NCBI GenBank assembly: GCA_029225485.1
Contig: JAQXWO010000241.1
Coordinates: forward strand, 1-38,412
Direction of reading: 5' to 3'
DNA: 38,412 bases
Source: Lachnospiraceae bacterium
Lineage (GTDB): Bacteria; Bacillota; Clostridia; Lachnospirales; Lachnospiraceae
Shown here in pieces: positions 9,541-38,412 of this stretch. A program made the translations under genes and the position numbers. The notes below the pieces were generated by a model. It was not told the origin of the DNA. It searched no databases and saw only the letters and a list, made by a program, of their open reading frames with translations. Numbering within the stretch: the first letter of the stretch is position 1; every line of letters starts with the position of its first letter.

Positions 9541-11070
9541 ATGGTTATGGGAACTACAGCAGGACTTCTGGCAGTGATCGTGGTCTATCTGATCATGATG
9601 GTCGTCATTGGAGTCTATTATTCAAGGAAAAATGAAAATGTCGGTGATTTTTATCTGGGCGGAAGAAAGCTTGGACCGATCGTGACAGCTATGAGTGCGG
9701 AGGCATCCGACATGAGCAGCTGGCTTTTGATGGGGCTTCCGGGAGTGGCGTACCTCTCGGGATGTGCAGAGGCAGGATGGACCGCCATCGGTCTGGCGAT
9801 CGGTACCTATTTTAACTGGCTGATCGTTGCCCGGAGACTTCGCCGCTATACGGTCAAAGCCAACAATTCCATCACGCTTCCGGATTTTTTCTCCAACCGC
9901 TATCATGATAAAAGTCATGCGCTGATGGCGATCTCCGCATTGATCATTGTGATCTTTTTTGTACCTTACACCGCGTCCGGGTTTGCGGCCTGCGGAAAAT
10001 TGTTTTCCACGCTGTTTGGAGTGCCCTATCTCCCGGCGATGATCGTCAGTGCGGTAATTATTGTAGCCTATACTTCTCTGGGCGGCTATCTGGCTGCCAG
10101 TACCACAGACCTGATTCAGAGTATCGTCATGAGTCTGGCACTGGTGATCGTGGTGATCTTTGGCATCAAGACGGCGGGAGGACTGAACACGGTACTGGAG
10201 AATGCCAATGCGCTGGATGGATTTATGACGCTGTTTGCTTCCCGCAATCCTGCGGACGGGACATCTTCCCCCTACTCGGCGCTTTCCATCGTATCTACCC
10301 TGGCATGGGGACTTGGCTACTTTGGAATGCCCCATATCCTGCTTCGTTTTATGGGAATTGAAGATGAAAAGAAACTGAAGACCTCCAGAAGGATTGCAAC
10401 AGTGTGGGTGGTGATCTCCATGTTCGTGGCGATCTTCATCGGAATTATCGGATACAGTATTTCAAAGGCCGGAGCGATCGAAGTGCTGGAAGGCTCTTCT
10501 CAGGCGGAGACACTGATCATCAAGATCGCGATGCTGCTCAGTCAGCACGGAGTTCTGGCTGTGATCATGGCAGGACTGATACTGGCAGGTATCCTTGCCT
10601 GCACGATGTCCACCGCGGATTCTCAGCTTCTGGCGGCTTCCTCCAGTGTATCACACAATCTGCTCAGTGACTGCCTCGGCATCAAAATGTCTCAGAAAAC
10701 ATCCATGCTGATGGCGCGGCTTACCGTTCTGATCATTGCAGTCATCGCTGTGATCCTGGCCTGCAATCCCAACAGCTCCGTATTCCAGATCGTCTCCTTT
10801 GCGTGGGCAGGCTTTGGCGCAGCATTTGGACCGGTGGTACTGTTTTCTCTGTTCTGGAAGCGTTCCAACAGAAACGGTGCTCTGGCCGGCATGATCGTGG
10901 GCGGTGTGATGGTATTCGTCTGGAAGTTCCTGATCGCGCCGATGGGAGGCATCTGGAATATTTATGAGCTGCTTCCCGCATTTCTCTGTGCCTCTGCGGC
11001 TATCGTGGTGGTCAGCCTTCTGACCGCGCCGCCGTCAAAAGAGATCGTGGAGGAGTTTGAGAATATCTAG
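9541..11070 (+). CDS. putP: Sodium/proline symporter, SSS family (PutP-like)
   Basis: This 509-residue inner-membrane protein takes up proline, or a related amino acid, with sodium. About thirteen transmembrane segments can be traced. Family landmarks include DFYLGGRKLGP, the AEASDMSSWLLMGLPG segment that helps form the sodium and substrate sites, SLGGYLAAS(T)TDLIQ, and YFGMPHILLRFM with the following cytoplasmic loop. The length fits PutP (about 490-510). The ATG at 9541 is chosen because AAAGGGGAG lies about 7 nt upstream; an earlier in-frame ATG at 9466 overlaps the promoter and would add an unlikely 25-residue basic leader. It is a single-gene unit with its own promoter and a terminator shared with the convergent aminopeptidase. 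Proline is the best guess for substrate from family resemblance, not proven. Confidence 0.93.
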   Translation: MVMGTTAGLLAVIVVYLIMMVVIGVYYSRKNENVGDFYLGGRKLGPIVTAMSAEASDMSSWLLMGLPGVAYLSGCAEAGWTAIGLAIGTYFNWLIVARRLRRYTVKANNSITLPDFFSNRYHDKSHALMAISALIIVIFFVPYTASGFAACGKLFSTLFGVPYLPAMIVSAVIIVAYTSLGGYLAASTTDLIQSIVMSLALVIVVIFGIKTAGGLNTVLENANALDGFMTLFASRNPADGTSSPYSALSIVSTLAWGLGYFGMPHILLRFMGIEDEKKLKTSRRIATVWVVISMFVAIFIGIIGYSISKAGAIEVLEGSSQAETLIIKIAMLLSQHGVLAVIMAGLILAGILACTMSTADSQLLAASSSVSHNLLSDCLGIKMSQKTSMLMARLTVLIIAVIAVILACNPNSSVFQIVSFAWAGFGAAFGPVVLFSLFWKRSNRNGALAGMIVGGVMVFVWKFLIAPMGGIWNIYELLPAFLCASAAIVVVSLLTAPPSKEIVEEFENI

Positions 11071-11163
11071 AGGTATAAAATAACGATTCAGAGGAAACTG
11101 GCTGAATGTGCCGCATTTTGTTTGTGAGGCATATACGGATCATAAAACAGATCAGAAAAAATA

Positions 11164-11215
11164 AGCCCCCGGAAATCCAGTGGTGATATGCCATCATGGA
11201 TTTTCGGGGGTTTTG
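11164..11215. terminator. Bidirectional terminator between putP-like and M55 genes
   Basis: A 16-bp GC-rich stem (AGCCCCCGGAAATCCA with TGGATTTTCGGGGGTT, one wobble) has further pairing inside the loop, and A- and T-runs flank it. The two flanking genes converge here. Confidence 0.88.
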
Positions 11216-11295
11216 TTCTGTCAGTCTGTGACATTTTGATGAATGACACCTATACTTCCGGGTGTCAGTTTATGATGTCCTGAAAGAAAAATGAA

Positions 11296-12090
11296 TTACA
11301 GAATGAACATTCTGCAGGAAGCCACTTCTTTGACTGAATGTCCGGTGTACTCTACGGTGTATGGACCTGTCTGCTTCACGCCGGGGAAAAAGCTGGCCCG
11401 ATATGCTTTGGAATGCTCCTTGAAGCAGATCTCCATGGTCAGAGTCTCCGGCACATCCATGTGGCAGTTGGCTCTGTTCAGGACTCCCTCTTTTGCCTGC
11501 TCCCGAATCTGCCGGCAGGCTTCTTCCGGAGTGATGCTGATGGTAGCTCCGCCGATGCCGTCCTTGACAGCTACGGTACGGATCTGACTGTCATACTCGT
11601 GGGCGTGGTCACAGAGACCCTGGTCTCCGCTCAAAAATACGGCAGGTACTCCCAGCTCGGCAGCATACAGTGCGTGCATCAGAAATTCGCTGCAGATCTG
11701 CCCGTTAAACCGCACGTAATTATTTCCCAGATTCATGGTGTGGCTCAGGGGATTCCGGTTGAAACCGGCAGGACTGTGGTAGCCTACGAAAAGCAGGGCG
11801 TCAAAGGTCTCATCAAGGCCGCCCACCATAGAGGCAGGATCGCAGATCCAGTCCCGGATAAAACGGCACTCTTTTGGAAAACCTGTGATATCAATATTTC
11901 TTCCTGTGTCATGAGCATCTTTGATGTAGACTTCCGTAGCACCTGCATCGATGGCGCCGAGAGCGGCTGCCAGGGCCTCCTGCTTCATCTGTGCAGCGGC
12001 AGCACCGTGTTCGATATTGCCCAGATTGGTACATTCCCAGGAAGTAGTGCCTGTCACACCTTCCAGGTCAACGCTGATATAAACTTTCAT
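11296..12090 (-). CDS. M55-family D-aminopeptidase (DppA-like)
   Basis: This 264-residue zinc peptidase resembles Bacillus subtilis DppA, which removes N-terminal D-amino acids from peptides such as D-Ala-D-Ala products. The metal-ligand pattern of the family is visible: SVDLEG (Asp8 and Glu10), KDAHDTGRN with its His, the GYHSPAG His, and a Glu in CSEFLMHAL. The length matches the family. The ATG has an AAAGGAG site 8-9 nt upstream. There is no signal peptide, so it acts in the cytoplasm. It is a single gene divergent from the MATE/dipeptidase operon, with a separate promoter. The grouping with a C69 dipeptidase and a proline symporter suggests use of imported peptides or recycled cell-wall peptides. 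Confidence 0.92.
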   Translation of the reverse strand: MKVYISVDLEGVTGTTSWECTNLGNIEHGAAAAQMKQEALAAALGAIDAGATEVYIKDAHDTGRNIDITGFPKECRFIRDWICDPASMVGGLDETFDALLFVGYHSPAGFNRNPLSHTMNLGNNYVRFNGQICSEFLMHALYAAELGVPAVFLSGDQGLCDHAHEYDSQIRTVAVKDGIGGATISITPEEACRQIREQAKEGVLNRANCHMDVPETLTMEICFKEHSKAYRASFFPGVKQTGPYTVEYTGHSVKEVASCRMFIL

Positions 12091-12132
12091 GAGAAATTAC
12101 TCCTTTTCTTTTGGATCAGTGGGTTTTTAATG

Positions 12133-12161
12133 ATTGTAATACATTTATGGAAAAAGGACAA
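12133..12161 (-). promoter_or_regulatory. Promoter for the M55 gene
   Basis: On the minus strand TTGTCC (12161-12156) and TACAAT (12138-12133) have a 17-nt spacer, about 40 nt before the start codon. Confidence 0.6.
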
Positions 12162-12181
12162 GATTTTCATTCATATTTCTC

Positions 12182-12210
12182 GTGACAGATTCCGTGTATT
12201 CGTGTATCAT
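12182..12210 (+). promoter_or_regulatory. Promoter for the MATE/dipeptidase operon
   Basis: GTGACA (12182-12187) and TATCAT (12205-12210), each 5 of 6 to consensus, have a 17-nt spacer. The predicted transcript starts just ahead of the GTG start at 12247. Confidence 0.6.
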
Positions 12211-12246
12211 GATGAGAGAAAATGTTTTTCGAAAGTGGGGGTTATT

Positions 12247-13602
12247 GTGAAAGCACGTACACAGGCAGCGGCACAGATGACGGAGGGACCGATCTGGAAA
12301 AGGATTTTATTCTTTGCGCTTCCGCTGATGGTTGGAAATCTGTTTCAGCAGCTGTATAATACGGTGGACAGTATCGTAGTGGGAAACTTTGTGGGAAAAG
12401 AAGCCCTGGCTGCCGTGGGGACCGTAGATCCGGTGATCAATACGTTTATCGGATTTTTCCTGGGGATGTCTGCCGGAGCCGGTGTGGTCATTTCCCAGTA
12501 TTATGGGGCGAAGGATGACAAAAAGGTGAGCCGGGCGGTACATACGACGATCACCATGACATTGATTTTATGTGTGGCCTGTACGGCAGGATCTCTGCTT
12601 GCACTGCCCGCACTTCTGAAGCTGATCGGCACGCCGGCGGATGTCTATCCGGAATCCAGGGCGTATCTGACCATTTATTTTGCGGGAATGTCGGGGCTTC
12701 TGCTCTACAATATGGGATCCGGCATTCTGCGGGCGGCAGGTGATTCCAGACGGCCATTGTATTTTCTGATTTTTTCGACGCTGCTCAATATTGTATTTGA
12801 CCTGTTGTTTGTAGCCGGTCTTCGGATGGGGGTGGCAGGAGCGGCCTATGCGACGATCCTTGCACAGGGATTATCGGCGCTGCTGGTGCTTTACGTGCTG
12901 ACCAGGGAGACGGAGTCCTACCGGATCCGATGGCGTGAGCTGGCGATCGATCCTGCACTGCTGGGTCAGATCGTGAAAATCGGTCTTCCCAGTGCGCTTC
13001 AGATGATGATTACGTCCTTTTCCAATGTATTCGTCCAGTCCTATATCAATCATTTTGGCTCTTCGGTGATGGCCGGCTGGTCTTCCTACGGCAAGGTAGA
13101 TAAGATCTGTCTGCTTCCGATGCAGAGTATTGCTCTGTCGGTCACTACTTTCACCGGCCAGAATCTGGGAGCAGGCAAGGTGGGCCGCTGCAGAAAGGGT
13201 ACGAAGGTGGCAGTATCCATGAGTCTTGTGGTGGCAGTGGCTTTGATTATTCCGATCTGGATCTTTGCCACACCTCTGGTAGCATTGTTTAACCGGGATC
13301 CGGAAGTGCTGAAATACGGAACACTGATCATCCGTCTGATGATGCCGTTTTATGTATCTATTTGTTTTAATCAGGTGTATTCTTCCACCATGCAGGGTGC
13401 CGGGAATACAAAAGTGCCGGTCATTATTATGATGTGCAGCTTTATCCTGTTCAGACAGGTCTATCTGTTTATCGCATCCCGTGTATCGGATTCCTTTATC
13501 CCCATTGCCCTGGGATATCCGTTGGGATGGATCGTCTGCAGTATTTCACAGGTGCTTTATTACCGCACGGTGGATCTGGAGAAATACCGGCTGACAAAGT
13601 GA
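12247..13602 (+). CDS. MATE-family multidrug/metabolite efflux transporter
   Basis: This 451-residue membrane protein has twelve predicted helices in two MatE repeats. The first begins WKRILFFALPLMVGNLFQQLYNTVDSIVVGNFVG, a signature of Clostridia MATE exporters, and the second starts around LLGQIVKIGLPSALQ. It exchanges sodium or protons for organic cations or metabolites. The frame stays open far upstream across the antisense M55 gene, so the start was fixed by context. GTG at 12247 follows a GGGGG run and lies downstream of the promoter at 12182-12210; an ATG at 12277 is possible but has no ribosome binding site. The dipeptidase gene follows after 19 nt, so they form an operon. Substrate unknown; export of amino acids or peptides would fit the neighbours but is speculative. 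Confidence 0.9.
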   Translation: MKARTQAAAQMTEGPIWKRILFFALPLMVGNLFQQLYNTVDSIVVGNFVGKEALAAVGTVDPVINTFIGFFLGMSAGAGVVISQYYGAKDDKKVSRAVHTTITMTLILCVACTAGSLLALPALLKLIGTPADVYPESRAYLTIYFAGMSGLLLYNMGSGILRAAGDSRRPLYFLIFSTLLNIVFDLLFVAGLRMGVAGAAYATILAQGLSALLVLYVLTRETESYRIRWRELAIDPALLGQIVKIGLPSALQMMITSFSNVFVQSYINHFGSSVMAGWSSYGKVDKICLLPMQSIALSVTTFTGQNLGAGKVGRCRKGTKVAVSMSLVVAVALIIPIWIFATPLVALFNRDPEVLKYGTLIIRLMMPFYVSICFNQVYSSTMQGAGNTKVPVIIMMCSFILFRQVYLFIASRVSDSFIPIALGYPLGWIVCSISQVLYYRTVDLEKYRLTK

Positions 13603-13621
13603 AAGAGAGGAGATATTTGAT

Positions 13622-15106
13622 ATGCCATGTACGACATTGCTTGTCGGGAAAAAGGCAAGCTACGATGGTTCTACAATGATTGCAAGAAACGATGATTCTG
13701 GTTCGGGTAGATTTACGCCCAAGAAATTTGTGGTGGTGCATCCTGAAGAACAGCCCCGGATCTATAAATCGGTGATTTCCCATGTAGAGATCATGCTTCC
13801 GGAGGATCCCATGAGGTATACCGCCATGCCGAATGCAGTGGAGGGAGAGGGAATCTGGGCAGCCAGCGGTGTCAATGAAGCCCATGTTGCCATGACGGCT
13901 ACGGAGACGCTCACATCCAATCCCCGGGTGCTGGGAGCCGATCCGCTGCAGGTATATCAGCCGGCAGAGGATGGCAGAGAAGAGATTCCGGGAGGAATCG
14001 GGGAAGAGGATATTGTGTGCATTGTACTTCCCTACATACACAGTGCAAGAGAGGGCGTACAGAGACTTGGAAGCCTGCTGGAGCAGTATGGTACCTATGA
14101 GATGAACGGAATCGCCTTTCAGGATCAGGACGAGATCTGGTGGCTGGAGACCATCGGCGGACATCACTGGATCGCGAGACGGGTGCCGGATGAGGTGTAT
14201 GTGGTGATGCCGAATCAGCTGGGGCTGGATCAGTTTGATCTGGAAGATGCTCTTGGCAGTGAGAAAGAATATATGTGTTCTCCTGATATGCGGGAATTTA
14301 TTGAAGAGAATCATCTGGATCTCTCTCAGGACAGAAGACTCAATCCCAGAGATGCCTTTGGCAGCCATGATGACGCGGATCATGTGTACAACACACCCCG
14401 GGCCTGGTACATGCTGCGCTGCCTGAATCCGCACGCGGTTGACTGGGATGGCGGTGACCGGCGGTATTCTCCCGTTTCTGATGAGCTGCCCTGGTGTATG
14501 GTTCCCGAGAAAAAGGTGACAGTAGAAGATGTGAAATATGTCCTGTCTTCCCATTTTCAGGGTACGCCCTACGATCCCTACGGTGCCTATGGGGACAAAT
14601 CCAGGCAGGGTGCCTATCGCTCCATCGGCATCAATCGAAATGACTTCCTCTCTGTGATCCAGATGAGGCCGGATCAGAGTGAGGACTGCCGCACCATCGA
14701 ATGGGTGGCATACGCCTCCAATGCATTTAATGTGCTGGTGCCCTTCTATGCAGATGTGGAGACAACGCCGGAGTACTTCTCAAACACAACGGGAACCGTT
14801 TCCACGGACAATTTCTACTGGACCAGCCGTATGATCGCGGCCATGGCCGATGCTTCTTATAAAGGCTCTGTTTTCCATATTGAACGATATCAGGAGCGGG
14901 TGATGTCAAAAGGACATGAACTGATCCATCGATATGATGCGCTGCTTGCCCGGGAGACGGATCCGCAGAAGCGCATGGCTCTGAAAACAGAGGCAAATCA
15001 GGAGATCGCGAAGATGGTGAAAAAAGCATCTCTGGATACGCTGGACAAAGTGCTGTTTGAGCTGAGCAGCCAGATGAAAAATGCATATGCGAGATCGGAT
15101 GCGTGA
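13622..15106 (+). CDS. C69-family dipeptidase (PepD-like)
   Basis: This 494-residue Ntn-fold dipeptidase belongs to the family of Lactobacillus PepDA. The N-terminus MPCTTLLVG places the nucleophile Cys at residue 3, exposed after removal of the first two residues, and ASYDGSTMIARNDD is the family's second signature. Other typical blocks are GVNEAHVAMTATET and WWLETIGGHHW. No signal peptide is present, so it is cytoplasmic and would cleave dipeptides taken into the cell. A GAGAGGAG site lies about 9 nt before the ATG. It follows the MATE gene by 19 nt and is closed by a hairpin at 15132-15180. Function as a broad dipeptidase is well supported; the preferred dipeptide is not known. Confidence 0.93.
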   Translation: MPCTTLLVGKKASYDGSTMIARNDDSGSGRFTPKKFVVVHPEEQPRIYKSVISHVEIMLPEDPMRYTAMPNAVEGEGIWAASGVNEAHVAMTATETLTSNPRVLGADPLQVYQPAEDGREEIPGGIGEEDIVCIVLPYIHSAREGVQRLGSLLEQYGTYEMNGIAFQDQDEIWWLETIGGHHWIARRVPDEVYVVMPNQLGLDQFDLEDALGSEKEYMCSPDMREFIEENHLDLSQDRRLNPRDAFGSHDDADHVYNTPRAWYMLRCLNPHAVDWDGGDRRYSPVSDELPWCMVPEKKVTVEDVKYVLSSHFQGTPYDPYGAYGDKSRQGAYRSIGINRNDFLSVIQMRPDQSEDCRTIEWVAYASNAFNVLVPFYADVETTPEYFSNTTGTVSTDNFYWTSRMIAAMADASYKGSVFHIERYQERVMSKGHELIHRYDALLARETDPQKRMALKTEANQEIAKMVKKASLDTLDKVLFELSSQMKNAYARSDA

Positions 15107-28890: not shown

Positions 28891-28938
28891 GCCGAAGTGA
28901 AAGACACCGGAAAGGTGCTTCGCTTCGGCCTGTTTTTT
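28891..28938. terminator. Terminator between DUF3786 and PurF-like genes
   Basis: GCCGAAG (28891-28897) pairs with CTTCGGC (28923-28929), with an inner CACC/GGTG stem. A TGTTTTTT tail lies on the right and an A-run on the left, so it can serve both converging genes. The T-run overlaps the last codons of the PurF-like gene. Confidence 0.82.
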
Positions 28939-30340
28939 ATTCTTTTCCGTTCCAGCAGTACGTGCAGAGCTTGCAGGGGGAAATGCCGATGGACTGGATC
29001 ATATCATCCAGTCTGTGATAGCGCAGTGTGGTGAAATTCAGTTCCCTGCGGATCTCTTCCACCATCTCCTGATAATTCCGGCTGTCAGGATCTGCGTAAT
29101 CTGCCAGCATTTCATCTGCATGTTCTCCTTCCCGCTTCAGGATCACGCGGCGGGCGATCAGATCAAGATCAGAAGAAGAGCGGGAGAAGTTCAGGTATTT
29201 ACATCCGAACATGATCGGCGGGCAGGCCGGGCGGATGTGAACCTCTTTTGCGCCGCTGTGATACAGGAATTCGGTGGTCTCCCGAAGCTGTGTACCGCGG
29301 ACGATGGAATCGTCGATCAGCAGCAGTGTCTTCCCTTTGATCAGTTTGTGGACCGGGATCAGCTTCATGCGGGCAATCAGATTTCTCTGTGCCTGATTGG
29401 TTGGCATGAAGGAGCGGGGCCAGGTCGGTGTATACTTAATGAAAGGACGGGTAAAGGGAATCCCGGATTCATTGGAATAACCGATGGCGTGGGCAATACC
29501 GGAATCCGGCACACCGGCAACACTGTCGGCCTGTACATTATCTCTCTTGGCCAACAGACGTCCGCATTCGTACCGCATGTCTTCTACGTTGACACCCTCA
29601 TAGCAGGCAGTGGGATATCCATAATAAACCCAGAGGAAAGAGCAGATCTTCATTTCCTGACCAGGCGCTTTCATGGTCTCGACTCCTTCCGGAGTCATGA
29701 ATACGATCTCTCCCGGGCCCAGTTCTTTATAATCCTCGTATCCAAGATTGAGGTAGGAAAAACTTTCGAAAGCAGCACAGAAAGCACCCTCCTTGTGACC
29801 GATGATTATCGGGGTGCGTCCCAGACGGTCACGGGAAGCATAAATACCTTCCGGTGTCAGAATCAGTACAGTAAGGGAACCGATGACCTTTTCCTGAAGC
29901 CAGGTCAGACCTTCTACGATTGTGGATTTCTGGTTGATCAGTGCAGCAGCAATCTCAGTCGGATTGATGGTGCCGCCGCTCATTTCCAGAAAATGAGTGT
30001 GTCCGTTTTTAAAGCATTCCTCCACCAGCTGGTCTGCATTATTGATCTTGCCTACCGTAGTAATGGCAAAGCTTCCCAGATGTGAGTTGACCAGAAGCGG
30101 CTGCGGCTCAAAGTCGGAAATACATCCGATTCCGAGATTCCCCTCCAGTTCATTTACATCGCGGTCAAACTTCGTACGGAATGGAGAATTCTGTATGTTG
30201 TGTATGGCGCGGTCAAAGCCTTTTTCACCATATACGACCATGCCGGCACGCCTGGTACCGAGATGGGAATGGTAGTCTGTTCCGAAAAACAGATCAAGAA
30301 CACAGGATTCTTTTGAAGCTACTGCGAAAAATCCACCCAT
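28937..30340 (-). CDS. PurF-like amidophosphoribosyltransferase paralogue lacking the glutaminase cysteine
   Basis: This 467-residue protein has the two-domain PurF layout: an N-terminal Ntn glutaminase fold (about 1-230) and a phosphoribosyltransferase domain (about 250-450) with the intact PRPP loop LLLIDDSIVRGTQL (about 339-352) and VPDSGIAHAIGYS. Active PurF begins its mature chain with CGVFG or a similar sequence; here the protein begins MGGFFAVAS, so the nucleophilic Cys is Gly. The oxyanion HNG motif is also replaced (TTVGKINN). The start is certain: AAGGAGG lies 9-10 nt before the ATG, so no upstream Cys is missed. C-terminal cysteines (CKLCTYC) and an internal Cys-rich block could bind a metal or Fe-S cluster, as in class II PurF. 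It is monocistronic and not near other purine genes. It may use free ammonia, act in another reaction, or regulate; this is not settled. Confidence 0.88.
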   Translation of the reverse strand: MGGFFAVASKESCVLDLFFGTDYHSHLGTRRAGMVVYGEKGFDRAIHNIQNSPFRTKFDRDVNELEGNLGIGCISDFEPQPLLVNSHLGSFAITTVGKINNADQLVEECFKNGHTHFLEMSGGTINPTEIAAALINQKSTIVEGLTWLQEKVIGSLTVLILTPEGIYASRDRLGRTPIIIGHKEGAFCAAFESFSYLNLGYEDYKELGPGEIVFMTPEGVETMKAPGQEMKICSFLWVYYGYPTACYEGVNVEDMRYECGRLLAKRDNVQADSVAGVPDSGIAHAIGYSNESGIPFTRPFIKYTPTWPRSFMPTNQAQRNLIARMKLIPVHKLIKGKTLLLIDDSIVRGTQLRETTEFLYHSGAKEVHIRPACPPIMFGCKYLNFSRSSSDLDLIARRVILKREGEHADEMLADYADPDSRNYQEMVEEIRRELNFTTLRYHRLDDMIQSIGISPCKLCTYCWNGKE

Positions 30341-32056: not shown

Positions 32057-32085
32057 TTGTACTTCTGCAAAATATATTGTAAAAT
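32057..32085 (+). promoter_or_regulatory. Promoter for the LRR-VWA operon
   Basis: TTGTAC (32057-32062) and TAAAAT (32080-32085) have a 17-nt spacer. The predicted start near 32092 lies after the ATG at 32088 and so supports the later start codon at 32124. Confidence 0.55.
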
Positions 32086-32123
32086 AGATGGCAGTTGAAG
32101 TTATCTTGAAAGAAGTGAGACAA

Positions 32124-33137
32124 ATGCGTGGTGACAGATCGTGGGAGGATATCCCGGATCAGGTATTGATATATGAAAAAAAGGAAGACAGCGCAGTGAT
32201 CTGGCGCTGTTTTTCACGTGAAGACCAGGCCGTCATTCCGGCCCGGGTGGAGGGGCTGACAGTGACGGAACTGGCGCCCTACTGCTTTTCTGCTTATATG
32301 GATCTCATGCAGCTGGAGCGGGGATTGAACAACGGGACACTGCATGCCACGGGAGAGGAAAAGCTTCCGGCTCTCTGCGGAGATGCACTGCACGGTCTGG
32401 TACTCCCGCCTACGGTGCGCCGGGCTGGAAGATATTGCTTCTATAATTGTGAGCAGCTGCAGTACCTGGAGTTTTTCAGCGGTTTGACGGACTGGGGGAG
32501 CGGAGTGTTTACAGGATGCCATCAGATGCGTGAAATCCGGATTCATCTGGATCAGACGGAGCGCTCCATGCTGAAGGAGGTACTGGATGAGGTGCCCGAG
32601 GCTCTGAAGGTAGAGTATCTGGTTGAGGGAGAGAAGACAGAAAAAGCGGTACTGGTTTTCCCGGAATTTTATGAGGAAGGTGTGGAAAATACGCCGGCCA
32701 GGATCCTGGAGACCCATGTACATGGCAGCGGGATCCTTTACCGGAACTGTTTCCGCAGCAGAGTGTTTGATTTTTCCCAGTATGACCGGCTCTTTCCCTA
32801 CGCAAAGGCCCGGGAAGACTTTGAGGTGACGGCGGAACTGGTGACAGGAAGGCTCTGGCATCCCTGCCATCTTACTCCGGAGGCCCGCAGGCAGTATGAG
32901 GAGTATGTGGAAGAGGAGAGGGAATCATTTGCAGTTTTGTTTTCTGAGAGAAAGGACATGCAGGGGATCCGCTGGCTGACCGGTCTACTGGGAGAGAAGC
33001 ATCCGGAGATCTATGACCGTCTGATGGAGCTGGCGGGCCGGAAGCAGTTTGTGGAGGCGGTCAGCTATCTGATGGAACAGAAGCATCGGCAGGAAACACC
33101 TCAGACGGGCAGGAAACGCAGGAGGATGGAGCTGTGA
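32124..33137 (+). CDS. Cytoplasmic BspA-like leucine-rich-repeat protein
   Basis: This 337-residue protein has LRR_5/BspA-type repeats in its first half: blocks such as LTVTELAPYCFSAYMDLMQL, LPPTVRRAGRYCFYNCEQL and GSGVFTGCHQMREIRI. It has no signal peptide or anchor, whereas most BspA-like proteins are surface-exposed. The second half (about 175-337) is mixed alpha/beta with a charged helical C-terminus (RRQYEEYVEEERESF... RKRRRMEL) and was not recognised. The ATG at 32124 is preferred because the promoter's start point excludes the ATG at 32088; its ribosome binding site is weak (GAAGTGAG). Its stop overlaps the GTG start of the VWA gene by 4 nt, so the two are translationally coupled and probably act together. 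A protein-interaction role is inferred. Confidence 0.75.
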   Translation: MRGDRSWEDIPDQVLIYEKKEDSAVIWRCFSREDQAVIPARVEGLTVTELAPYCFSAYMDLMQLERGLNNGTLHATGEEKLPALCGDALHGLVLPPTVRRAGRYCFYNCEQLQYLEFFSGLTDWGSGVFTGCHQMREIRIHLDQTERSMLKEVLDEVPEALKVEYLVEGEKTEKAVLVFPEFYEEGVENTPARILETHVHGSGILYRNCFRSRVFDFSQYDRLFPYAKAREDFEVTAELVTGRLWHPCHLTPEARRQYEEYVEEERESFAVLFSERKDMQGIRWLTGLLGEKHPEIYDRLMELAGRKQFVEAVSYLMEQKHRQETPQTGRKRRRMEL

Positions 33138-34498
33138 CAGAAAAATCAAATCCGATCTATGAACAGCGGGAGCGGGGGATCGCCTTTATGGAGATTGGTA
33201 TGGATATCCTCCGCAATGCGAGAAATGAGCTGTATCTGGCCATGCGTTTCCTGGATGTTTCCCTGTCTTCGCTTGCTTTTGTGCCGGAGCAGCAGATCAG
33301 TCTCATGGGTACAGACGGGGCTGCTCTTTATTTCCAGCCGGAGGCTCTGGCATCTCTGTTCCGGAAGGGCCGTGTACTGGTGAACCGTGCCTATCTGCAC
33401 AGTATTCTGCACTGTCTCTTCGGTCATCTGTGGCATCAGAAGGAACGGGATGCCGAATACTGGAATCTGGCCTGCGACATCGCGGCAGAATGGGTGCTGG
33501 ACGGACTTCAGGTGCGTGCTGTCCATGTGCCCGGATCCATGTTCCGGCGCAGCGTGTACCGGAAGCTGGCATCCTGGGACAGGGATCCGGACGGACAACA
33601 GGAGGAATATGCGGCAGTGTATTCTTTTACCGCGACGGCGGAGCGTATTTATCGTATTCTCTGCCAGATGCATCTGCCGCAGCCGAGAATGGATGAGCTG
33701 GTGCGGGAATTTACCGTGGATGATCACAGGATGTGGCGGCAGGAGGATTCGCAGAATCAGCCGGATCCAATGCGCCAGCGGTGGGATGATATCCGGGACA
33801 GGATGCAGACAGAGATGGAGACCTTTTCCAAAGAGGCTTCCGACGATGTGCGCAGCCTGACCGATCAGGTGGAAATCGAGAACCGGGAGCGGTATGATTA
33901 CCGGGAATTTCTGAAGAAATTTTCCGTGCTCAAGGAAGAAATGCAGGTGGACATGGATTCTTTTGATTATATTTTTTATAATTACGGGATGAGCCTGTAT
34001 GGAAACATGCCGCTGATCGAGCCTCTGGAGACGAAGGAGGTCCGGCGGGTGGAGGATTTTGTGATCGTGATCGATACCTCCATGTCCTGCCAGGGCGATC
34101 TTGTCCGCCGGTTTCTGGAAGAGACCTGCAATATTCTGCAGGAGTCGGAGAGCTTTTTCCGCAGGATCAATATACGGATCCTGCAGTGCGATGACAGGAT
34201 ACAGGAAGATGTGAAGATCACCAGCCATGAGGAACTGGCTGCGTACATGAAGCATTTTACGGTGAAAGGTCTGGGAGGTACAGACTTTCGGCCGGCTTTT
34301 GTCTATGTGGAGGAACTTCTGCGCAGAAGAGAATTTACGAAGCTGCGGGGACTGATCTATTTTACAGACGGTTACGGCACATTTCCTGTGCGCAAACCGG
34401 ATTATGAGACAGCCTTTGTATTCTTAAAAGAGGATTACCGGGACGTGGACGTTCCGCCCTGGGCCATCAGACTGATACTGGCGCCGGAGGATCTGTAA
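33134..34498 (+). CDS. VWA-like protein with degenerate DUF2201 metallopeptidase domain
   Basis: This 454-residue cytoplasmic protein has an N-terminal DUF2201_N-like domain (about 1-250) and a C-terminal von Willebrand A domain (about 305-450). The VWA metal site is intact: VIVIDTSMSC gives DxSxS, GGTDFRP gives the Thr, and YFTDGYGTFP the second Asp. The metallopeptidase motif that reads HExxH in this family is HSILHCLFGH (residues 89-98) here, so the catalytic Glu is Ser and activity is doubtful. A charged helical stretch (about 215-290) links the domains. The GTG start at 33134 follows AGGAGG by 8 nt and overlaps the LRR stop. Proteins of this kind pair with MoxR-type ATPases, and one is encoded downstream at 35252, beyond thyX. 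Confidence 0.87.
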   Translation: MTEKSNPIYEQRERGIAFMEIGMDILRNARNELYLAMRFLDVSLSSLAFVPEQQISLMGTDGAALYFQPEALASLFRKGRVLVNRAYLHSILHCLFGHLWHQKERDAEYWNLACDIAAEWVLDGLQVRAVHVPGSMFRRSVYRKLASWDRDPDGQQEEYAAVYSFTATAERIYRILCQMHLPQPRMDELVREFTVDDHRMWRQEDSQNQPDPMRQRWDDIRDRMQTEMETFSKEASDDVRSLTDQVEIENRERYDYREFLKKFSVLKEEMQVDMDSFDYIFYNYGMSLYGNMPLIEPLETKEVRRVEDFVIVIDTSMSCQGDLVRRFLEETCNILQESESFFRRINIRILQCDDRIQEDVKITSHEELAAYMKHFTVKGLGGTDFRPAFVYVEELLRRREFTKLRGLIYFTDGYGTFPVRKPDYETAFVFLKEDYRDVDVPPWAIRLILAPEDL

Positions 34499-34529
34499 AA
34501 TTCTTCTGGAAAACCGGACGATATTCGGT

Positions 34530-34535
34530 TATAAT
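34530..34535 (+). promoter_or_regulatory. Possible thyX promoter (-10 only)
   Basis: A perfect TATAAT lies in the 118-nt gap between the VWA and thyX genes. The sequence 17 nt upstream (TGGAAA) is a poor -35. It may allow thyX to be expressed independently of the upstream pair. Confidence 0.4.
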
Positions 34536-34616
34536 TTTGCGGGTCTGTGAGAGCGCAGAGCGCAAAACAGGCCGTCGGATATCTTCAGACATCTTAATTT
34601 TAGAAAGGACAGAAAA

Positions 34617-35246
34617 ATGAGAATTGTTGAACCAAAAGTAGAGATTATCACACCGATCCACGGTCAGGAGATCCTGCATCACATCGAACAGGTGGGCAGA
34701 GTCTGCTATAAATCAGAAAATAATATAACAGAGGGATCTGCGGAAAAATTTGTGGGTGGAATCATTAAGCGTGGACATGAAGCGGTGATCGAGCATTACA
34801 ATATTACGGTCAAATTTACGACAGACCGGGGGATCACTCATGAGATCGTGCGTCACCGGATCGCCAGCTATGCCCAGGAGAGTACCAGATACTGCAACTA
34901 TTCCAAGGATAAATTCAGCAATGAGATTGCAGTGATCCGGCCGGTGGACATCAAAGAAGGAACGAAAGAATATCAGGACTGGAAGGAAGCCATGGAAAGC
35001 GCAGAAAAATTCTATTTTGCGCTGCTTGCCGACGGCTGCAAGGCACAGACGGCCCGTTCCGTGCTTCCTACCTGTACCAAGACAGAAATCATGGTTACCA
35101 TGAACCTGCGGGAGTGGAGACATTTTATCAGGCTGCGAGCAGCTTCGGCAGCACATCCGGATATCCGGATTCTGGCAGTGGATCTTTGGAAGCAGTTTAA
35201 GGAGCAGATTCCGGTGATTTTTGACGACATAGAGATAGAAGAGTGA
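34617..35246 (+). CDS. thyX: Flavin-dependent thymidylate synthase
   Basis: This 209-residue enzyme converts dUMP to dTMP using FAD, NADPH and methylenetetrahydrofolate, the alternative to ThyA. The ThyX signature is present as RHRIASYAQESTRY (from Arg79), and a second conserved block is NLREWRHFIRLRAASAAHPDIR. GHEAVIEHYNITVKF precedes the signature, as in other ThyX proteins. The common NE in the signature is AQ here, a substitution seen in several Clostridia. AGAAAGGA lies 8 nt before the ATG. The stop overlaps a possible GTG start of the ATPase gene by 4 nt, and the more likely ATG is 6 nt on, so the two are tightly linked. There is no obvious biochemical connection between dTMP synthesis and the surrounding ATPase/VWA genes. 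Confidence 0.96.
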   Translation: MRIVEPKVEIITPIHGQEILHHIEQVGRVCYKSENNITEGSAEKFVGGIIKRGHEAVIEHYNITVKFTTDRGITHEIVRHRIASYAQESTRYCNYSKDKFSNEIAVIRPVDIKEGTKEYQDWKEAMESAEKFYFALLADGCKAQTARSVLPTCTKTEIMVTMNLREWRHFIRLRAASAAHPDIRILAVDLWKQFKEQIPVIFDDIEIEE

Positions 35247-35251
35247 CTGAT

Positions 35252-36760
35252 ATGAATATCAAACGTGCAAAACAGGAAATTAAGGATACGATCGAATCCT
35301 ATCTTCTGAAGGACGAGGACGGGGAATATGTGATTCCTCAGGTGCGTCAGCGGCCGGTGCTGCTGCTGGGAGCTCCCGGTATTGGAAAAACACAGATCAT
35401 GGAGCAAATCGCCCGGGAGTGCGGGATCGGTCTGGTGGCTTACACCATCACCCATCACACGCGTCAGAGCGCCATAGGCCTGCCGTTTATTTCTCAGAAA
35501 CAATTCGGAGGAAAAGAGTACGCAGTTACAGAATATACCATGAGTGAGATCGTCACCTCTGTCTATGAAAAGATGGAGCAGACGGGATTGTCAGAGGGGA
35601 TTCTGTTTCTGGATGAGATCAACTGTGTGTCGGAGACACTGGCGCCTGCCATGCTGCAGTTTCTGCAGTGTAAGACTTTCGGTACCCATGCGATTCCACA
35701 GGGATGGATCATCGTGGCTGCAGGAAATCCTCCGGAATACAACAAATCTGTCCGGGAATTTGATGTAGTGACCATGGATCGTGTGAAAAAAATCGAGGTG
35801 GAGCCGGATTTTGGAGTCTGGAGAGAGTATGCCGGCCAGGCCCATATACATCCTGCCATTATTTCTTATCTGACGGCCCGCACCGGTTATTTTTACAAGA
35901 TGGAAACAACGGTGGACGGAAGAAGGTTCGCCACGCCCCGTGGATGGGAGGATCTGTCCAGGATTCTGGAGGTCTATGAAAAACTCGGGAAAAAAGTGGA
36001 CCGTGAGGTGGCGGTACAGTATATTCAGCACGAAAAGATAGCCAAAGATTTTGCCAATTATCTGGAACTGTTTGAAAAGTATCAGATGGATTATCAGCTG
36101 GATGCCGTGCTGGCGGGGCATATCGATGATATTCTGATCAAAAAAGCATCTCACGCATCTTTTGACGAGCGTCTCAGCGTTGTCAGCCTTCTGCTGTCCC
36201 GGTGCAGCAGGGCCTTTGCAGAGGTGGAAACAAAGGAACAGGAACTGGAGCAGATCTTCGGACAGCTGAAATCCCTGAAAGAAGGTATGCTTGGTACGTA
36301 CAGCAGCAGTCCCCAGGAGCTGATGGAAGAGACCGCAGAGCAGTTCGAAAGGGAATATGAGCAGAAAAAGAAGGCAGAGCTTCTGTCCCGGGAAGACGCA
36401 AAGATCTGCCGCAGTGTCATGAGAAAACTGGAAGAACTGGTGCAGCAGCTGAAAAAGAATGGAATTACTGACGGACAGGCTGCATTCGAGTGGATCAGGC
36501 AGTGGTTTGATCGGCAGCAGGATGTACAGGAAGAAGAAAGAGACCGGGCTGGAGCCATGCTGGAGCACGCTTTTGATTTTATGGAGGCTGCCTTCGGACC
36601 GGGGCAGGAACTGGTGATATTTATTTCGGAGATGAATGCTGACTATTACTGTGTGCGCTTCCTGCAGGATTATGAGTGTGAACGGTATTATTACTATAAT
36701 AAAAGCCTGCTGGTGGAAGATAACAGCAGAGCAATTGAAGCGAGGCTGAGAGAGCTGTAG
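35252..36760 (+). CDS. MoxR-like AAA+ ATPase
   Basis: This 502-residue ATPase has a single N-terminal AAA+ module (about 1-235) with Walker A GAPGIGKT (residues 40-47) and Walker B ILFLDEIN (Asp121-Glu122). The blocks THHTRQSAIGLPFI and VAAGNPPEYNKSVREFD, and the arginine-rich RRFATPRGWEDL, are typical of MoxR-family proteins that act on a VWA partner. The second half (about 250-502) is helical and highly charged with coiled-coil character (around EQFEREYEQKKKAELLSREDA) and was not recognised. The start at ATG 35252 is preferred (GAG 8 nt upstream) over a GTG at 35243 that overlaps the thyX stop. Its natural partner in this window is the VWA/DUF2201 protein at 33134. The MBL-fold gene follows 50 nt on. 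Confidence 0.9.
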   Translation: MNIKRAKQEIKDTIESYLLKDEDGEYVIPQVRQRPVLLLGAPGIGKTQIMEQIARECGIGLVAYTITHHTRQSAIGLPFISQKQFGGKEYAVTEYTMSEIVTSVYEKMEQTGLSEGILFLDEINCVSETLAPAMLQFLQCKTFGTHAIPQGWIIVAAGNPPEYNKSVREFDVVTMDRVKKIEVEPDFGVWREYAGQAHIHPAIISYLTARTGYFYKMETTVDGRRFATPRGWEDLSRILEVYEKLGKKVDREVAVQYIQHEKIAKDFANYLELFEKYQMDYQLDAVLAGHIDDILIKKASHASFDERLSVVSLLLSRCSRAFAEVETKEQELEQIFGQLKSLKEGMLGTYSSSPQELMEETAEQFEREYEQKKKAELLSREDAKICRSVMRKLEELVQQLKKNGITDGQAAFEWIRQWFDRQQDVQEEERDRAGAMLEHAFDFMEAAFGPGQELVIFISEMNADYYCVRFLQDYECERYYYYNKSLLVEDNSRAIEARLREL

Positions 36761-36810
36761 AAACAAAGCATTTTTATGGCTGTATCTGCAACCTGGAAAG
36801 AGGACATCGG

Positions 36811-38022
36811 ATGAAGAAGATAAGAATGTACAATGTGGGATTTGGGGATTGTTTCTGTCTCAGAGAAAGAAAAAGCAGCCTTCTGGTTGATTTTGGTACA
36901 AGCAATAAAAAAATAGGAAATAAACTGCGCGATGAAGTCTTTGACCGGGTGATCTCAGACTTGTCGACCATGCCACGGAAGAATCTTCTTCTTTCCCATT
37001 TTCATCCAGATCATCTGTCCGGCCTGCTTTATATGATGAAAAAGAAGGATCAGGCAGGGGAGTTCCATACGATATATCTGCCGGATGTGTTTTCGCAGCC
37101 GCAGATGACCAGGATCCTTACCATTCAGATCATGGCTGACCTGATGAACGGCTCCTATCTTCCGGGGCGGCAGGTGAGCCTGGCGGCGCTTCTTGAGACA
37201 CTTTGTTCCAGTCCCTGCCATATCTGTCTATTGAAACGGGGAGATATCTTTGAAGAAAAATATCAGACATTGTGGCCGGATACGGACTGGATCCTCCGGG
37301 AAGTAGATGATCTGATCCGGGGGATTCCGGAAGCAGTTCTGGTAGGGTGGAATGCCCTGTATGAACTTGCCGAACAGATGCGTGCCGTGATCTGCTCCAT
37401 GACCATGGATGAAGAGGTACTCTGGAAGGAAGGGCTGAAAGCATCCGGAGTACTGCAGGAAGGGGAAAACGAGGACAGGGAGACTGTCTGTCGGAGAGCA
37501 GGGGAAAGTCTGCTCAAAAGATTTGCCCAGGTGCGTAAGTCACAGGAAGTGTCACAGCTTCTTCATTATTTTGAGAGAAGACAGATGGAGCTGCGTCGGT
37601 TTAAACACAAGATCAGCATCGTATTTCAGAACAGGACAGACGGAGAACTGAATGTGCTGTTCACAGGAGATATTCCGTCCTCTTATCTGCAGGCTGTTGC
37701 AGATAATTACGACGGAAGCTGTCCCCTTCATGAGCATTACTGGTGCATCAAGGTTCCGCACCACGGCACTGGTTCCCATTTTTTTGATTTTGGCAGATAC
37801 ACTCCGGACAATATGCTGATCTCCAATGGCATCTACTATGCCAACAGTCGGAAACAGGAGAGGGAGAGCCGCATCTGCGGACTGTATGCCGGTCTGTTCT
37901 ATATAGAAGATACCACGATGTACTGTGCCAGCAGCGAAAACTGCGAAGGATACCGAAGCGGCTGCGGATGCACCTGCCGGGAGCATGAGATTATAGACCC
38001 GGGATATTATAAAGATATTTAA
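36811..38022 (+). CDS. Metallo-beta-lactamase-fold hydrolase with insertion and Cys-rich tail
   Basis: This 403-residue protein has an MBL fold of the ComEC/Rec2-like branch. The metal motif is SHFHPDHLSG (His63, His65, Asp67, His68), followed by FTGD (Asp287) and PHHGTG (His317-His318). About 200 residues separate the first and second metal motifs, much longer than in single-domain MBL proteins; this insertion is helical and charged. The C-terminus is Cys-rich (CASSENCEGY, CGCTC) and could bind zinc. No transmembrane segment is present. GAGG lies 8-10 nt before the ATG. It follows the ATPase gene by 50 nt and probably ends that operon. Many MBL proteins of this branch act on nucleic acids or phosphodiesters, but the substrate here is unknown. 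No terminator separates it from the rRNA promoters. Confidence 0.85.
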   Translation: MKKIRMYNVGFGDCFCLRERKSSLLVDFGTSNKKIGNKLRDEVFDRVISDLSTMPRKNLLLSHFHPDHLSGLLYMMKKKDQAGEFHTIYLPDVFSQPQMTRILTIQIMADLMNGSYLPGRQVSLAALLETLCSSPCHICLLKRGDIFEEKYQTLWPDTDWILREVDDLIRGIPEAVLVGWNALYELAEQMRAVICSMTMDEEVLWKEGLKASGVLQEGENEDRETVCRRAGESLLKRFAQVRKSQEVSQLLHYFERRQMELRRFKHKISIVFQNRTDGELNVLFTGDIPSSYLQAVADNYDGSCPLHEHYWCIKVPHHGTGSHFFDFGRYTPDNMLISNGIYYANSRKQERESRICGLYAGLFYIEDTTMYCASSENCEGYRSGCGCTCREHEIIDPGYYKDI

Positions 38023-38040: not shown

Positions 38041-38069
38041 TTGACAAGAGTGAAATGACGTGGTAACAT
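38041..38069 (+). promoter_or_regulatory. rRNA promoter P1
   Basis: TTGACA (38041-38046) and TAACAT (38064-38069) have a 17-nt spacer, preceded by A-tracts that could act as an UP element. The block AAAAAAGTTGTTGACAA (38031-38047) recurs exactly at P2. Confidence 0.8.
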
Positions 38070-38078
38070 AGCAAATGT

Positions 38079-38115
38079 CGCCGCGAGAGAGCGGCGCGGA
38101 ACTTCAAAAAGTTCC
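38079..38115 (+). other. Two adjacent hairpins between the rRNA promoters
   Basis: CGCCGC-gagaga-GCGGCG (38079-38096) is followed by GGAACTT-caaa-AAGTTCC (38098-38115). Both are perfect stems, separated by 1 nt, and would form only in transcripts from P1. No U-run follows. Confidence 0.6.
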
Positions 38116-38135
38116 GAAAGAAAATAAAAAAGTTG

Positions 38136-38164
38136 TTGACAAACGCAAACAACTGTGATAAGAT
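38136..38164 (+). promoter_or_regulatory. rRNA promoter P2
   Basis: TTGACA (38136-38141) and TAAGAT (38159-38164) have a 17-nt spacer and a TG before the -10. The block AAAAAAGTTGTTGACAA (38126-38142) is identical to that at P1. A 7-bp stem GTTGCTG/CAGCAAC (38171-38194) lies just after the start. Confidence 0.85.
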
Positions 38165-38263
38165 ATCAAAGTTGCTGCGGAACGGAACAGCAACGAAGAA
38201 CCTTGATAACTGAACAGTGAAACAACCTTGAAAAATTCTTAAAAGTTTTATTTTTTAAGGAAC

Positions 38264-38276
38264 TGACCTTTAAAAC
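38264..38276 (+). promoter_or_regulatory. boxA-like antitermination element in the rRNA leader
   Basis: TGACCTTTAAAAC resembles the boxA sequence bound by NusB/NusE in rRNA leaders and lies about 50 nt before the 16S gene. The match is imperfect and was judged by eye. Confidence 0.35.
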
Positions 38277-38326
38277 AGTAAAGGAAAGATAGCCAAGACG
38301 TTATCTGACCGAGAATCAAACACATT

Positions 38327-38412
<86 letters not shown>

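Follow-up and report, generated by a model that had tools for sequence, protein, structure and literature searches.

A conserved LRR–VWA–AAA+ gene module in Lachnospiraceae, with thyX and an MBL-fold hydrolase gene as local neighbours

Five adjacent genes and their distribution

We describe a run of five genes in a contig of a Lachnospiraceae bacterium (GenBank assembly GCA_029225485.1, contig JAQXWO010000241.1; the window, that is, the whole stretch analysed, is 38,412 nucleotides (nt) long). The genes encode, in order, a leucine-rich repeat (LRR) protein, a protein with a von Willebrand factor A (VWA) domain and DUF2201, the thymidylate synthase ThyX, a MoxR-like AAA+ ATPase (hereafter AAA) and a hydrolase of the metallo-beta-lactamase (MBL) fold. 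A preliminary description had reported five closely packed genes on one strand; all five open reading frames (ORFs) indeed lie on the plus strand, and the families then named are upheld by Pfam (Table 1). The five genes are real, but they are not one system: LRR, VWA and AAA form a conserved module, and thyX and MBL are its local neighbours.

Table 1. Features of the five-gene run in the window
Feature	Positions	Strand	Product	Basis
LRR gene	32088-33137	+	349 aa	LRR_5 above Pfam cut-off, E 1.4e-7
Segment encoding the helical C-terminus of the LRR protein	32643-33134	+	residues about 186-349	
VWA/DUF2201 gene	33134-34498	+	454 aa, GTG start	DUF2201 and DUF2201_N above Pfam cut-off
Promoter-like match in the VWA–thyX gap	34507-34535	+		TGGAAA-17-TATAAT, 10/12; weak, consensus scan
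thyX	34617-35246	+	209 aa; FAD-dependent thymidylate synthase	Pfam Thy1 above cut-off
MoxR-like AAA+ ATPase gene	35243-36760	+	505 aa from GTG	AAA_5 (1.7e-7) and AAA above cut-off
MBL-fold hydrolase gene	36811-38022	+	403 aa	Lactamase_B 1.3e-5, above Pfam cut-off

The overlapping stops and starts of the earlier account are present at the LRR/VWA junction, where the overlap is 4 nt and AGGAGG stands upstream of the VWA start. At the thyX/AAA junction a 4-nt overlap exists only if AAA begins at its GTG; the alternative ATG at 35252, which the earlier account had chosen, lies 5 nt beyond the ThyX stop and agrees with the N-terminus MNIKRA of relatives. Its start for the cluster, 32057, falls 31 nt before the LRR ATG. 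The other junctions are gaps, one of 118 nt between VWA and thyX, with the promoter-like match inside it, and one of 50 nt between AAA and MBL. The region scanned holds 14 promoter-like matches, compared to a mean of 6.6 in shuffles.

Among 47 genomes of the window's genus (E ≤ 0.001), matches to AAA occur in 46, to VWA in 45, to ThyX in 31 and to MBL in three. LRR matches at this threshold are found in 46 of the 47, many of them generic LRR repeats; the specific protein is present in 44 (E ≤ 1e-20). Across the family, sampled as 120 genomes with one per genus and the window's own counted, AAA is encoded in 63 (E ≤ 1e-30). At the same threshold it appears in five of 299 phylum genomes: the window's, two more of the family and two from other families.

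From the 62 AAA-positive genomes of other genera 39 loci were taken, 34 of which have at least 3.5 kb of sequence upstream. In all 34 a VWA gene lies upstream of AAA and on its strand, and in 31 an LRR gene does so too; in 31 of the 34 LRR, VWA and AAA share one strand. A scan of named genomes returned at least 593 stretches encoding a relative (one gene may match both patterns), and we used the best 80 loci. These include [Clostridium] symbiosum, Coprococcus comes, Blautia, Hungatella, Anaerostipes and Lacrimispora, and also Oscillibacter, Dysosmobacter and Caproiciproducens, which we take to lie outside Lachnospiraceae. Where at least 3.5 kb lies upstream (72 of these best 80), a same-strand upstream LRR gene was counted in 60 and a VWA gene in 62; the overlap limit of this count overlooked at least two loci, L214 and L252 (L and G numbers are our handles for loci and genomes). 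The best 80 hold thyX in two cases, both from the window's genus, and MBL in none.

As a control, the genes from seven places 5' to five places 3' of AAA were clustered by blastp over 118 partly redundant loci. AAA was present in 118, VWA in 113 and LRR in 101, which bears out the MoxR/VWA pairing, and the link of an LRR protein to it, that had been proposed from the window; next came an ABC-transporter-like ATPase (identified by eye) with 13. Since no other family occurs in more than 13 of the 118 loci, there is no fourth constant gene near AAA. The preliminary description had offered as a test the joint occurrence in other genomes of the four genes other than thyX: LRR, VWA and AAA do occur together, and MBL is not with them outside three genomes.

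Variants of the arrangement exist. At two loci (L238 and L251) LRR–VWA is divergent from AAA. The window's own genome carries a second VWA–AAA pair on another contig (L052, G000:C236, 7625-10850), with AAA 47% identical; this contig stops about 150 nt upstream of the VWA gene, leaving any third part out of view.

The three proteins and the constant helical domain

The LRR protein combines BspA-type LRRs with a C-terminal domain made of helices. Judged by a crude measure of hydrophobicity, the window's protein has no stretch resembling a signal peptide, and only one of 64 relatives has one; the protein is probably cytosolic. In its AlphaFold model (mean predicted local distance difference test score, pLDDT, 92.5) the chain forms strands as far as about residue 212 and then helices, which end at 336, and Foldseek searches with the model return LRR proteins, TpLRR (6mlx) first. 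Across an alignment of 64 sequences, residues 186-305 are the best conserved of the regions compared, with a mean identity to the window of 41%, against 29-35% for the regions before 186 and 29% for 306-349. Among third components only LRR_5 (63/64) and LRR_8 (8/64) match, and no Pfam model covers the C-terminal domain; a profile search of solved structures gave ankyrin 1n11 as its best match (E 0.0048), which is a hint only. Full-length LRR proteins measure 258-458 aa apart from longer forms, and one long third component reaches 1177 aa.

A profile of the C-terminal domain (A4, 33 rows) was searched in what are apparently the same 120 family genomes. It produced 60 matches in 53 genomes, comprising 51 of the 63 that are AAA-positive versus two of the 57 that are AAA-negative. 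Fifty-three of the 60 matches lie within 5 kb of an AAA gene, and 48 of the 53 are upstream of it on the same strand. The two AAA-negative genomes are G150, where the match accompanies a VWA protein and an AAA remnant, and G127, where it is weak and runs across a stop. Twelve AAA-positive genomes lack a match. In ten of them an LRR protein is encoded by the next gene 3' of AAA, scoring 22-45 bits against the profiles, and the tails of nine LRR proteins so placed align with the C-terminal domain at an hhalign probability of 95.7; at one of the ten, L274, no VWA was recognised. The locus of an eleventh is on a 3.6-kb contig, and the twelfth is G100, where no third part is seen.

The domain is also found without the repeats. 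In paralogous VWA–AAA loci (L054, L058, L059, L060 and L289) it stands alone, as a protein of 122-142 aa encoded before VWA. In three genera it is fused to the N-terminus of VWA (whole-genome E values of 2.6e-15 in G147, 1.0e-12 in G150 and 9.6e-10 in G093), and a weak match occurs at the VWA N-terminus in L061 and L062. The constant third part is the C-terminal helical domain (about residues 186-349). In comparative work its fusion to VWA, taken with the constant adjacency of the genes, would commonly count as evidence that the proteins associate physically, though not as proof. The fused gene of G150 (L282, 6932-8497) is a single ORF that joins the C-terminal domain to VWA profile positions 13-328 and AAA profile positions 407-494.

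The VWA protein matches DUF2201 (PF09967; 1.1e-11, 45.4 bits, cut-off 26.4) and DUF2201_N (PF13203; 7.4e-10, 39.3 bits, cut-off 23.2). Of 68 VWA proteins, chosen to be shorter than 520 aa, all 68 match DUF2201 and 61 match DUF2201_N; apart from VWA models they have no further Pfam domain in common. The residues expected of a metal-ion-dependent adhesion site (MIDAS), D314, S316, S318, T383 and D412, are invariant in all 68 rows, as are H89, H93, H98, E119 and D123 of the DUF2201_N part. HExxH is the motif of active metallopeptidases. Here H89 and H93 are invariant, but the glutamate at position 90 is present in only one of 68 rows, the window having S; activity of the VWA protein as a peptidase is therefore unlikely. 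The structural model has a mean pLDDT of 85.3, with low confidence at residues 261-300 (block means 51-66); twelve residues between 259 and 299 are nevertheless invariant. Mean identity to the window is 47-63% for VWA regions versus 35% for the LRR protein, the most variable of the three. The VWA profile matched no solved structure; Foldseek with the model returned VWA domains and also a TROVE domain, the latter in poor superposition.

In AAA the Walker A and B residues G43, G46, G48, K49, T50, D124 and E125 are invariant in 25 sequences including the window. The AAA_3 and bpMoxR models score below cut-off, and profiles from the PDB give short P-loop matches, mostly to p97/Cdc48. In padloc, a set of defence models, there is no strong match: the best E value is 2.5e-4 for AAA and 0.033 for LRR, and VWA has none.

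VWA and AAA match two families of phage proteins, phrog_1314 (7.3e-38) and phrog_1297 (6.6e-44), so that distant relatives occur in phages. A total of 604 phage records match AAA, all below 60% identity. Among the 25 matches listed, seven 'Bacteriophage sp.' contigs are 44-59% identical and the other 18 are 24-28% identical. The seven (MT837836.1, MT837937.1, MT839739.1 and four more) come from human faeces, are short (4-15 kb) and unannotated, and carry relatives of both VWA and AAA; VWA itself matches 12 phage records, nine of them faecal contigs of this sort, which may be bacterial DNA. A phage origin was rejected: every phage match to AAA falls below 60% identity, and the closest among those listed may be bacterial.

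A candidate remodelling machine

The composition and conservation of the module, its gene orders, the domain fusions and the conserved MIDAS and Walker residues are observed. As an interpretation of them we favour, on balance, an AAA+ remodelling machine of the MoxR–VWA kind, located in the cytosol and built of three parts, with AAA as ring, VWA as coupler and the LRR protein as adaptor. AAA would assemble, probably, into an ATP-driven ring, and the VWA/DUF2201 protein would use its metal-dependent MIDAS site to couple this ring with a client. By analogy with the finger of NorD in NorQ, a conserved VWA segment at about residues 255-300 is perhaps threaded into the ring. The C-terminal helical domain is predicted to dock on the N-terminal part of VWA, and the LRR array, again by analogy, may select a particular client and bring it to VWA–AAA. 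We would expect the module to do housekeeping work and not to serve in conflict, since nearly all genomes of the genus carry it and no recurrent effector stands beside it. If this reading is correct, gut Lachnospiraceae have in the module an AAA+ system that is uncharacterised and widely conserved, with a minimal set of LRR protein, VWA and AAA, and its helical domain is a new one to be named. It would also extend the MoxR–VWA principle to adaptor-based choice of client, in bacteria beyond those with described ternary systems. Among the papers listed in literature searches none treats the LRR–VWA–AAA combination by title or abstract, which is not proof that none has been published; one of those listed, PMC11090510, contains both MoxR and leucine-rich repeat.

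The nearest characterised analogue is NorQ/NorD, a MoxR AAA+ and VWA pair that serves iron insertion into nitric oxide reductase; excerpts of two papers describe how the ring holds a finger of the VWA domain, and a MIDAS site needed for the client (PMC13036017, PMC9976466). The module resembles this pair in having an AAA+ ATPase and a partner with an N-terminal part and a C-terminal VWA domain with MIDAS. To our knowledge DUF2201_N is not a NorD domain. Unlike NorQ/NorD, the module includes an LRR/helical third protein, of which the same excerpts make no mention for NorQD (PMC13036017, PMC9976466). Two E. coli clusters are similar in gene order: RavA/ViaA, where MoxR AAA+ and VWA genes are adjacent and where, unlike in the window, no LRR protein is annotated alongside, and yehI-yehQ, where a MoxR-like gene (YehL) and a VWA gene (YehP) are clustered.

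In composition the module comes close to the MoxR-vWA ternary conflict systems, in which, too, a constant third component accompanies a MoxR-like ATPase and a vWA protein. According to excerpts of the papers describing them, that component is VMAP, iSTAND, FtsH-type or a beta-propeller (PMC7159879), or iSTAND2 or TERNS3 (PMC8195603), and the bacteria in which these systems are reported are mainly multicellular and belong to other phyla (PMC7159879, PMC8195603). The module differs in that its third part is a helical domain, usually with BspA-type LRRs, where those excerpts name no LRR protein as third component, and in that Pfam found no effector domain on the VWA protein (68 rows, <520 aa). 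We count the module among the MoxR-VWA ternary kind, with an LRR/helical third component, rather than as a separate kind.

Several results weigh against the three-part machine. In the window's own genus 33 loci have at least 3.5 kb upstream, and of these only 22 place VWA, and only 18 LRR, upstream of AAA; in one large branch the module genes are scattered, VWA being either 3-4 kb 3' of AAA or on a different contig. No LRR third part is seen at G100 (L276), G193 (L177) or G170 (L176), and at the last of these a 1110-aa protein without a match to the module profiles (10700-14032) stands 5' of VWA–AAA, possibly a different third component. An earlier search of a first locus set found no VWA-fused domain at the threshold used, and the G150 fusion resembles a deletion remnant. 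The Fisher p value for co-occurrence of domain and AAA, 1.2e-19, ignores shared ancestry. In profile comparisons the AAA–RavA probability is moderate (92 over 123 columns) and that of VWA–ViaA insignificant (2.5); AAA–YehL is weak (11) and VWA–YehP insignificant (0.9). ORF starts were assigned mechanically. As to a housekeeping role, the matches to two phage families count against it, as does the frequent casting of MoxR-vWA pairs as conflict systems (excerpts of PMC7159879).

A further observation concerns the genus loci. Genes read from their translations as dapA, dapB and lysC, with no family search, precede LRR in six loci with the LRR–VWA–AAA order, and several detached LRR genes stand after genes of similar sizes. 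By gene size only, this suggests that the order of the six loci was ancestral in the scattered branch. A functional link to these genes was rejected, as they do not recur in the family-wide set.

A conflict system would assign the same proteins other parts: the LRR protein would sense an invader or a stress protein, VWA–AAA would set a threshold and an effector, here MBL, would act. We consider this improbable. Predicted conflict systems do have MoxR-vWA pairs at their core (excerpts of PMC7159879), but no effector gene recurs beside the module, the commonest other family reaching 13 of 118 loci. MBL does bear a weak likeness to LmuA and RTasMBL, but it is found in three of 47 genus genomes and none of 39 other-genus loci, and its three relatives are not neighbours of VWA or AAA. 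The phrog matches of VWA and AAA and the variable length of the LRR protein would also fit such a system; on the other side, padloc has no strong match for LRR, VWA or AAA, and the 68 VWA proteins (rows <520 aa) share no extra Pfam-annotated domain.

It is similarly doubtful that the module is a maturation factor for one enzyme, inserting a metal or cofactor as NorQD does, with the LRR protein as a fixed subunit and not a chooser of clients. The near-core status of the module in the genus and the invariant MIDAS are compatible with this, and H89, H93, H98, E119 and D123 could form a metal site. However, no enzyme gene recurs beside the module, and what would be a fixed subunit is the most variable of the three proteins.

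Passenger genes and surroundings

ThyX and MBL are passengers in the window's lineage. ThyX is recognised by TIGR02170 (138.6 bits, cut-off 87.9), and thyX lies beside AAA in seven of the 47 genus genomes (G000, the window's, and G027, G029, G031, G033, G036 and G043), with ThyX encoded elsewhere in 24, in one of these by a weak match. Neither thyX nor MBL is present at any of the 39 other-genus loci. Six of the seven loci that bear thyX fall into a single clade of the AAA tree, and the seventh, G029, on a long branch that calls for caution, groups with three loci without thyX; one lineage-specific insertion of thyX and its later loss are likely, though not proven. On this distribution and the tree, thyX was rejected as a functional part.

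That the whole run of five works as one functional unit, in which thyX or MBL would be a genuine partner, is very unlikely: the genes share a strand with short gaps and their order is kept in G000, G027 and G029 (although AAA of G029 is 63% identical to the window's), but both thyX and MBL are missing from 39 of 39 other-genus loci, ThyX is so often encoded elsewhere in the genus and the tree fits one insertion then loss.

MBL stands 3' of AAA in its three genus genomes, G000, G027 and G029. Three relatives were found among 295 genomes of the order, and the stretches read around them show neither VWA nor AAA alongside. The preliminary description had suggested MBL as an effector, a proposal rejected on its distribution. 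In padloc MBL resembles defence proteins weakly, LmuA at 6.7e-9 (33.3 bits, no cut-off listed) and RTasMBL at 2.1e-7, and remains below the cut-offs for Avs1a (23.3 bits, cut-off 420) and 6A-MBL (21, cut-off 220). A search of plasmids gave no match to MBL. The three relatives in the order (L171, 9151-10491; L172, 9102-10388; L173, 9664-10848) have a cysteine-rich C-terminal tail, and near that of L172 is an LRR protein with a hydrophobic N-terminus.

The cluster ends against a ribosomal RNA (rRNA) operon: 3' of MBL, positions 38041-38412 hold a leader, in which two promoter-like TTGACA boxes stand, and then, by eye, the apparent start of a 16S rRNA gene. On the minus strand at 28937-30340 the window encodes a PurF-like protein (183 bits, purF cut-off 350), a divergent relative of amidophosphoribosyltransferase.

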